A stretch of DNA of 64,000 nt from Longimicrobium sp. (GTDB lineage Bacteria > Gemmatimonadota > Gemmatimonadetes > Longimicrobiales > Longimicrobiaceae): positions 1 to 64,000 of the forward strand of contig NZ_DATIND010000149.1 of NCBI RefSeq assembly GCF_035474595.1, written 5' to 3'. The notes beneath the pieces are model-generated. The model worked only from the letters and a program-made list of their open reading frames with translations, was not told where the DNA came from and ran no database searches. How positions within the stretch are numbered: the first letter of the stretch is position 1; every line of letters begins with the position of its first letter. This document shows positions 10,519-46,579 of this stretch, in pieces. Both the position numbers and the translations under genes were made by a program.

Positions 10519-11334
10519 ATGCCGCCGACGATCTCCGCAGAGCGCGCGGACGCCGCGTCTCCCACCGATGCCGTGGCGCCGGGAGATGCGGACGTGCCGC
10601 CGCCGCAGCGTGCTTCGCGCGTCCACGTCCTCGCCGAGCACCGGGGGTGGCGCGCGGCGCTGCGCGAGTTCGCGGTGATCGTGGCCGGCGTGATGTGCGC
10701 GCTGGTGGCGCAGGCGTGGTGGCAGGGGCGCGAGGACCGCGGCCGCGAGCGCGACTACCTGCGCCAGCTCCTGGCCGACACGCGCGAGAACGAGCGCCGC
10801 CTGGACGACGCCATCCGCACCGACAGCATCGCCGCGGTGGTGACGGGGCGCGCGGTGGACGCGCTCACCGGCCCCGCCGGCCGCCTCGCCGCGCCGGATT
10901 CGATGGTGGCGTGGGTGACGGGCGCGGGCGCCGCCAGCAGCTACCAGCCGCTGGACGGCAACTACCGCGCGCTGGTCGGCACCGGCGACCTGCGGCTGGT
11001 GCGCAACGACTCGCTCCGCGCGCTGCTCGCGTCGTACGCCTCGTCGCTGGAGAGCGAGGGCGCGCGCCAGGGGCAGCTCCGCGAGACGATCACGGCGCAG
11101 GCAGGGCCGATGACGCTCGCCTTCCCGTTCATGCGCCGCGTGTTCCTGCACGACGTCAGCGCGGCGGGGGTGGACGTCGCCCGCCTGCGCGCCGACCCGC
11201 GGGCGGTGGAGGTGCTCTTCAGCCTGCAGGCGGCGGCGTCGAACCGCCTCTCCGGGCTGCACGGCCTGCGCGACCAGACGCGCCGCCTCCGCCGCGCGCT
11301 GGAGGCCGAGCCCGCGGCGCGCGGCGGCCGCTGA
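10519..11334 (+). CDS. Single-pass membrane protein with coiled-coil-like region (DUF6090-like)
   Basis: The 271-residue product has a Pro- and Ala-rich start and one membrane helix at about residues 51-68 (EFAVIVAGVMCALVAQAWW). A long charged helical region follows, starting REDRGRERDYLRQLL. The pattern of a helix ending in Trp residues followed by a helical soluble part resembles DUF6090-type proteins; that family assignment is tentative and the function unknown. It begins 2 bp after dtd. Confidence 0.75.
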   Translation: MPPTISAERADAASPTDAVAPGDADVPPPQRASRVHVLAEHRGWRAALREFAVIVAGVMCALVAQAWWQGREDRGRERDYLRQLLADTRENERRLDDAIRTDSIAAVVTGRAVDALTGPAGRLAAPDSMVAWVTGAGAASSYQPLDGNYRALVGTGDLRLVRNDSLRALLASYASSLESEGARQGQLRETITAQAGPMTLAFPFMRRVFLHDVSAAGVDVARLRADPRAVEVLFSLQAAASNRLSGLHGLRDQTRRLRRALEAEPAARGGR

Positions 11335-11363
11335 CCGCAAACCACGCTTCTTCCGACGAATCG

Positions 11364-11972
11364 ATGACGGATACGGATACGCCGCCGCCCATCGTGCTGG
11401 CCTCGCAGTCTCCCCGGCGCGCCGAGCTGATCGGGCGGCTGGGGCTGGAGTTCGAGGTCTTCCCCGCCGACATCGACGAGAGCTACCGCGACGGCGAGAT
11501 GCCCCCCGAGCACGCCGAGCGCCTGGCGCGCGAGAAGGCGGAGACCATCGCCGCCACGCACCCGCACGCGCTGGTGGTGGGCTCCGACACCATCGTGGTG
11601 ATCGACGGCGCGGTGCTGGGCAAGCCGCGCGACCGCGAACAGGCGGTGGACATGCTGATGCGCCTCTCCGGCCGCGACCACGAGGTGTGCACCGGCGTCG
11701 CCATCGCCATGGACGGCCGCGTGGAGAGTGGGCTGGAGCGGGTGCGCGTCCGCTTCCGCACGCTCGACCGCGAGGCATGCGAGGCGTACGTGGCCACCGG
11801 CGAGCCGATGGACAAGGCCGGCGCCTACGGCATCCAGGGCTTCGGCAGCGCCATCGTCGAAGGCATCGAGGGCGACTACTTCGCGGTGATGGGCCTCCCC
11901 GTCGTGCGCATGCTGGCGCTGATCGAGCGCTTCGGATGGCGGTACGGCTTCGGGCGGCTGGTGCGGGGGTGA
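11364..11972 (+). CDS. maf: Maf family nucleoside triphosphate pyrophosphatase
   Basis: Maf proteins hydrolyse dTTP/UTP or modified nucleotides to monophosphates. The 202-residue protein has the N-terminal signature LASQSPRRAELI, the DIDES segment, the GSDTIVV active-site motif and the KAGAYGIQGFG loop of the Maf/Ham1 superfamily. The KAGAYGIQG form with a YhdE-like loop suggests a dTTP/UTP type, though this cannot be settled from motifs alone. It starts 29 bp after the preceding gene and is followed by a repeat. Confidence 0.93.
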   Translation: MTDTDTPPPIVLASQSPRRAELIGRLGLEFEVFPADIDESYRDGEMPPEHAERLAREKAETIAATHPHALVVGSDTIVVIDGAVLGKPRDREQAVDMLMRLSGRDHEVCTGVAIAMDGRVESGLERVRVRFRTLDREACEAYVATGEPMDKAGAYGIQGFGSAIVEGIEGDYFAVMGLPVVRMLALIERFGWRYGFGRLVRG

Positions 11973-45820: not shown

Positions 45821-46057
45821 TAGGGACGGGATGCTTCGCCCCTGGTGCGCGCTCTGCCAGCGGCGGTGCACTACCGGCTCGCCGGAGGGCTACAGCCCCT
45901 CGTCTTCGACGGACCCGCTTCATGGTGAAGGTCACCCGGTCGGGCCGATTACGCCGTTCTTGTTCCCCCGCTGTCACCCGACGAATATTGCAGCTGCCCA
46001 CCATCGCTGCCGACCGGGGGCAGCGGTTTTCATCCACATCCGGAATGCGAGGAGATC

Positions 46058-46393
46058 ATGAGAAAGCTCACGCTCAACCTGAACGCGCTGGCGGTGCAGT
46101 CGTTCGCGACCGACGCCGCGAGGCCGGGGTTCGGCACGGTGCAGGGGCGGCAGAAGGGGAACACCGGACTGCAGGACACGGACTGCTCGGCGGTGGACGC
46201 GTGCCCGTCGGCGCGCGGCTGCAGCGAGCTGGACGAGTGCCGCCGCACGCAGGGCGACAACTGCCCGTCGGCCGCGCTGGACTGCCCGACCTCTCGCGGG
46301 TGCAGCAAGGGCCCGGACTGCGACCCGTCCGCCGTGGACGCGTGCATCTCCGAGCGCGGCTGCACGGAGATCGGCTGCCCCGTCGAAGCCTGA
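46058..46393 (+). CDS. Pinensin-like RiPP precursor candidate with Cys-rich repeats
   Basis: The 111-residue peptide begins MRKLTLNLNALAVQSFATDA and then FGTVQG. That resembles the leader of pinensin-type lanthipeptide precursors (LxLNLxxLxVxSFxT ... GTVxG). The C-terminal part holds 11 cysteines in three related units: C43-x5-C49-x5-C55-x5-C61, C69-x6-C76-x5-C82-x5-C88, and C96-x5-C102-x4-C107, each around SAxDxC-x5-GC. There is no modification enzyme gene in this window. It could equally be a disulfide-rich secreted-type protein. A strong terminator follows. Confidence 0.8.
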   Translation: MRKLTLNLNALAVQSFATDAARPGFGTVQGRQKGNTGLQDTDCSAVDACPSARGCSELDECRRTQGDNCPSAALDCPTSRGCSKGPDCDPSAVDACISERGCTEIGCPVEA

Positions 46394-46439
46394 GCCATCC
46401 CCCCGGCTCGAGGGCGAACCCGCTGCCGGGAACGTGACG

Positions 46440-46479
46440 AGCCCCGTCCGGTGACGCGCCAGCGTCATCGGACGGGGCT
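46440..46479 (+). terminator. Terminator of the RiPP-like gene
   Basis: AGCCCCGTCCGGTGACG pairs with CGTCATCGGACGGGGCT (one G-T-type mismatch) around a 6-nt loop. Confidence 0.78.
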
Positions 46480-46480
46480 T

Positions 46481-46579
46481 CAGCACTCAGCACTCAGCAC
46501 TCAGCACTCAGCACTCAGCACTCAGCACTCAGCACTCAGCACTCAGCACTCAGCACTCAGCACTCAGCACTCAGCACTC
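46481..46579. repeat. Tandem heptamer array (CAGCACT)n
   Basis: About 14 uninterrupted copies. The reverse complement of this unit (AGTGCTG) makes the array at 60779-60960. Confidence 0.95.

Follow-up and report, generated by a model that had tools for sequence, protein, structure and literature searches.

The question raised by this locus is how a small, cysteine-rich peptide gene comes to stand alone in a Longimicrobium genome, and which enzymes, if any, act on its product. The gene lies in a window of 64,000 nucleotides, the whole stretch of DNA analysed, on a 148-kb contig (C149) of a 6.57-Mb draft genome of 163 contigs (G000). An initial annotation, made from the sequence of the window, read it as an orphan pinensin-like precursor of a ribosomally synthesized, post-translationally modified peptide (RiPP). 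The features of the gene are as follows.

45960..45989, + strand: promoter-like pair, TTGTTC (45960-45965), 18-bp spacer and AATATT (45984-45989), recognized by conservation
46050..46054, + strand: ribosome binding site AGGAG, just 5′ of the ATG
46058..46393, + strand: precursor peptide gene, 111 aa, with ATG start, coding score, orthologues in two relatives and dN/dS <1
46439..46480, + strand: perfect 19-bp hairpin, terminator-like, without a T run (RNA fold −41.6 kcal/mol, z −9.4)

The open reading frame (ORF) is not a chance one, since it has a coding signal in its own frame, the AGGAG site, and full-length orthologues in two congeneric genomes (84% identity in G014 and 82% in G011) that keep 11 of the 11 cysteines, with dN below dS (dN/dS of the core 0.32-0.50). 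The neighbouring genes are unlike in all three genomes, yet DNA similarity starts ∼110 bp 5′ of the ATG in each, from which it appears that the gene and its own promoter form one unit that has moved, or whose surroundings have. TTGTTC and AATATT are unchanged upstream of all three orthologues despite the different flanking genes, and would serve as the promoter; both orthologues also have a hairpin-like sequence 3′ of the gene, as judged by eye. The best explanation is a stand-alone unit of promoter, gene and hairpin. Its position away from any cluster and its varying surroundings might instead mean that it is a copy of a cluster precursor that has decayed or is not expressed, but the gene is intact in three species, with the promoter block, every cysteine and the Ser/Thr of the predicted rings kept under dN < dS, and we consider decay very unlikely. 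Immediately 3′ of the hairpin lies a perfect TCAGCAC tandem array of 14.3 copies (46480-46579).

The encoded peptide consists of a leader, a short spacer and three cysteine-rich units.

46058..46147, + strand: leader, residues 1-30, MRKLTLNLNALAVQSFATDAARPGFGTVQG, without Cys (NF038180 17.3 bits; common leader pattern)
46184..46240, + strand: unit 1, residues 43-61, C-SAVDAC-PSARGC-SELDEC, from sequence and three-species alignment; predicted rings S44-C49, S51-C55 and S56-C61
46262..46321, + strand: unit 2, residues 69-88, C-PSAALDC-PTSRGC-SKGPDC, from sequence; predicted rings S71-C76, T78 (or S79)-C82 and S83-C88
46322..46378, + strand: unit 3, residues 89-107, DPSAVDAC-ISERGC-TEIGC, from sequence; predicted rings S91-C96, S98-C102 and T103-C107

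The leader follows the pattern MxKLxLxxDxLxVESFxT...GTVxG, common to 42 leaders of the genome. The name pinensin-like needs qualification: many paralogues pass the NF038180 model, while the window leader, at 17.3 bits, falls under the curated cut-off of 24 bits. The peptide has no match to the Nif11 family.

The three units, with 4, 4 and 3 cysteines (at 43, 49, 55, 61; 69, 76, 82, 88; and 96, 102, 107) in mostly x5 spacing, are as first described, and they are true repeats: self-alignment of the core scores 62 at best, and 300 shuffles reached no more than 49. The resemblance of the units can also be seen at the DNA level. The distance from Ser/Thr to the next Cys runs 5-4-5, 5-4-5 and 5-4-4, and each of the nine predicted Ser/Thr-Cys pairs keeps a Ser or Thr in three species. 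We therefore read the core as three copies of a putative three-ring module, approximately [ST]x4C-P-[ST]x3C-[ST]x3-4C, which would allow up to nine thioether rings and leave over Cys 43 and Cys 69. The ORF thus has the repeated core units of a multi-core precursor. No clear linker separates units 2 and 3 in the window peptide, so we lean towards a single predicted nine-ring product over separated modules.

Candidate cysteine-rich folds were sought for the peptide. It belongs to no Pfam family, and the sole hit of a PDB profile search was an OmpA chain, which matched in composition but had no passing stretch. The AlphaFold model was not of a confident fold (pLDDT 38.6, a weak test given the shallow alignment).

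Very high Cys content, and the cysteines left over in the ring scheme, are what one would expect if these were unmodified, disulfide-bonded secreted peptides whose leader serves ABC export only. We find this unlikely. The window peptide has no hydrophobic stretch resembling a signal peptide (best 12-residue mean 1.04), the weak fold test likewise gives it no support, and Ser/Thr stand at fixed offsets from Cys; the strict tie of these leaders to LanB across the family, described below, also argues against it. In non-redundant cores of the genome, Ser/Thr are enriched at −5 (z 10.8) and −1 (z 15.5) from Cys and depleted at −2, and the cores of relatives show the same placement. As direct proof of rings the −5 enrichment was dropped, since leaving out Cys that have another Cys four residues before lowers it to z 2.9; much of the family signal comes from an [ST]CxxxC motif that is absent in the window ORF. 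The signal thus supports a constrained Ser/Thr-Cys geometry and does not by itself prove rings.

LanB and LanC genes usually lie next to a class I precursor gene, though this is not strictly required. Here the orphan label holds locally and fails for the genome: neither LanB nor LanC is encoded on the 148-kb contig, and no radical-SAM enzyme was found among ten nearby proteins scanned, again in line with the initial annotation, but class I enzymes occur elsewhere. LanB (PF04738) is found on contigs C4 and C23, each copy cut by a contig end, and LanC-like domains on C23, C25, C136 and C87, the last three being parts of two LanM proteins and one LanKC. The absence of RiPP enzymes that would have told against a modified peptide is therefore not what the genome shows. 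A genome with LanB and LanC, and a core rich in Cys and Ser/Thr behind a Cys-free leader, are what a class I precursor calls for, and both are found here.

The cluster on C23 (L046) encodes, on one strand, the N part of LanB (its domain truncated by the contig end), the C part of LanB (PF14028), LanC (PF05147), six precursors, an ABC transporter, an HlyD protein and an S8 protease. The best NCBIfam match of this LanC is the cyclase end of LanM, so that the cluster pairs a split LanB with a LanM-like LanC, as in pinensin-type systems. LanC residues C313, C360 and H361, in the WCHG and LCHG motifs, are invariant; we take these to be the positions of the zinc ligands. G011 holds a corresponding cluster, on its contig C103, in the same arrangement.

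The C23 cluster also shares the core of the window peptide. The unit that is tripled in the window ORF stands once, as CSAVDACPSGRGCSVVSVC, at the end of one of its precursors, and another carries CSAIDRCPTRLC. The C23 peptide at 11237-11398 reads MPKQKLNLDTLAVESFDAAPAVAPMLDEALSGQRCSAVDACPSGRGCSVVSVC, with one copy of the window unit. The corresponding G011 cluster holds CSAIDACPSARGCTEISPC and a shorter variant, and a G017 peptide has two units, CTSEIDACPSARGCTFLENC and CTSEVDACPTGRGCSDVFVC. Read by eye, the Ser/Thr-to-next-Cys spacing in the C23, G011 and G017 units is 5, 4, 5. Peptides with one, two and three modules thus all exist, and their spacing, 5-4-5 except for the 5-4-4 of window unit 3, leads us to read the unit as a predicted three-ring module. 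Further repeated-core precursors are found on C119, in two genes that both have three units, and on C121, with two units.

These precursors belong to a large repertoire, which appeared when paralogues were sought and which the initial annotation had missed. NF038180 finds 99 sites in the genome, from weak to strong, of which 19, the window site not among them, reach the 24-bit cut-off. A first reading of the loci identified 111 precursors, spread over 39 contigs; they form 55 groups, of which 37 are single genes. We then used a leader profile (A4) built from the 42 leaders, the window leader being one row. It gives at least 150 leader matches in the genome, the weakest listed having an E-value of 2.9e-7. 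All 149 matches that were read end in a stop, with lengths of 47-124 aa and three or more Cys beyond the leader; 52 of them are new relative to the first set. Both sets together make at least 163 distinct precursors on 54 contigs, a lower bound. Their leaders are practically without Cys and their cores are 15% Cys. Ribosome binding site-like sequences stand before the first gene in 50 of 54 precursor groups, against 21% of random stretches, and no obvious common promoter was seen by eye among the upstream sequences of the 55 groups. The RiPP reading is now well supported by these paralogues and by the C23 LanBC cluster.

Tandem arrays of ∼6-8 precursors with related cores occur at L059 4787-6804 (C109) and L065 (C70:13127-14860), both in G000, and further such arrays at L052 5397-7707 (C97) and L055 5155-7285 (C80). 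Lying away from LanB and LanC, they look like recent local expansions.

Leader presence was scored with A4 (thresholds 0.01 and 1e-4) in 21 genomes of the family. Leaders were found in 10 (G000, G001, G004, G007, G009, G011, G013, G014, G015 and G017), and LanB in exactly these ten; the 11 genomes without LanB have no leaders. By simple counting the chance of such a match is 1 in 352,716 if genomes are independent, although they are related. Counts range from 1 in G013, 51 in G007, 79 in G001 and 86 in G017 to 149-150 or more in G014, G011 and G000. The sole precursor of G013, at L141 13000-13242 (C30), lies near LanB, and its core is a run of SC, GC and TC (GDCSSCTSCTSCSGCSGC...).

Three family genomes (G010, G012 and G016) have LanC-like genes without LanB, and no leaders were found there, which makes LanB a more likely partner than LanM. 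This bears on the possibility that the precursor family is as described but its leader is read by LanM, LanKC or YcaO instead of LanBC. The genome does encode LanM on C25 and C136 (the latter with two YcaO and TfuA) and LanKC on C87, and a pinensin-type precursor lies ∼4.6 kb away from LanM on C25, but the two do not share an operon. Against such a reader stand the six precursors inside the C23 LanBC cluster and the fact that the C136 and C87 systems own small precursor-like genes with unlike leaders, as well as the leaderless genomes just named; we regard it as quite unlikely. The C136 locus (L051, C136:1-8000 of G000) is a hybrid RiPP cluster in which LanM (DUF4135 plus LanC), two YcaO and TfuA accompany a pair of almost identical small precursors, their cores being FCCDGTKVCCC. 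At L058 2191-5412 (C87 of G000) lies a LanKC-type class III synthetase (RamC_N, kinase and LanC), and immediately 5′ of it is what may be a small precursor gene.

The window ORF is in our judgement probably a class I lanthipeptide precursor that stands alone and is modified in trans, its ring pattern and processing being predicted from sequence comparison. Its pinensin-type leader would be recognized by a LanB dehydratase and a LanC cyclase from another part of the genome. The C23 pair is the most likely one; the precursors within that cluster match the window peptide in both leader type and core. Ser/Thr would be dehydrated by LanB, and the Cys downstream of them added by LanC; the leader would then be removed by the C23 subtilase and the product exported by the C23 ABC/HlyD pair. 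With at least 163 dispersed precursors of common leader and differing cores, a few enzymes may serve a large peptide library.

Split LanB and LanM-like LanC have been described for pinensin-type systems (PMC7268733). Like the pinensins (NF038180; class I, split LanB, Bacteroidetes), the present system has the same leader pattern, a split LanB and a LanM-like LanC; it differs in a window precursor unlinked to its enzymes, a three-module core, >160 paralogues, occurrence in Gemmatimonadota and a leader under the NF038180 cut-off. The prochlorosins and synechococsins (ProcA/SyncA with ProcM/SyncM) likewise combine few enzymes with many dispersed precursors of constant leader and variable core, and the highest count of ProcA/SyncA in one Synechococcus genome is 83, dispersed and served by a class II enzyme (PMC10783134). 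They use class II LanM and Nif11-type leaders, whereas here, although LanM is present, the precursors are linked to class I LanB/LanC, have a leader of unrelated type and number at least 163. The system is best explained, by analogy, as the class I equivalent of the prochlorosins. Multi-core RiPPs such as the cyanobactins also place several similar cores behind one leader, with different chemistry, and the multi-core strategy has been stated to be unreported for lanthipeptides (PMC13343206, 2026).

For Longimicrobium and Gemmatimonadota we found only general cluster counts in the literature, subscription papers lying outside the search, so that novelty is provisional. On that footing, >160 such precursors are more than we found reported for any single genome. 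With moderate confidence we propose that this lineage runs the largest lanthipeptide repertoire found so far, in which one or two class I LanBC sets act in trans on >160 dispersed precursors in each genome, including true multi-module precursors (the window ORF, C119 and C121), a design unreported for lanthipeptides. One-enzyme, many-substrate promiscuity is known for class II lanthipeptides (ProcM/SyncM). If the proposal is true, these genomes offer a naturally broad LanB/LanC and hundreds of ring patterns in one library, and test the tolerance of a glutamyl-tRNA-dependent dehydratase for so many cores. The series of one, two and three modules would allow a direct test of multi-core lanthipeptide evolution and processing. 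Cluster-based mining, which searches near LanC genes only, misses most of these precursors.

Beyond the family the leader is rare: NF038180 at E ≤ 0.001 is found in only 6 of 298 genomes of the phylum, five of the six within the family. A related LanC, accompanied by similar leaders, occurs at a Melioribacteraceae locus (L195). The C23 LanC (L046 13082-15133), like others of its group, has a ∼240-residue C-terminal extension with only a weak DUF4777 match, and tblastn matches in the Acidobacteria (L194) and Melioribacteraceae (L195) loci also cover this extension.
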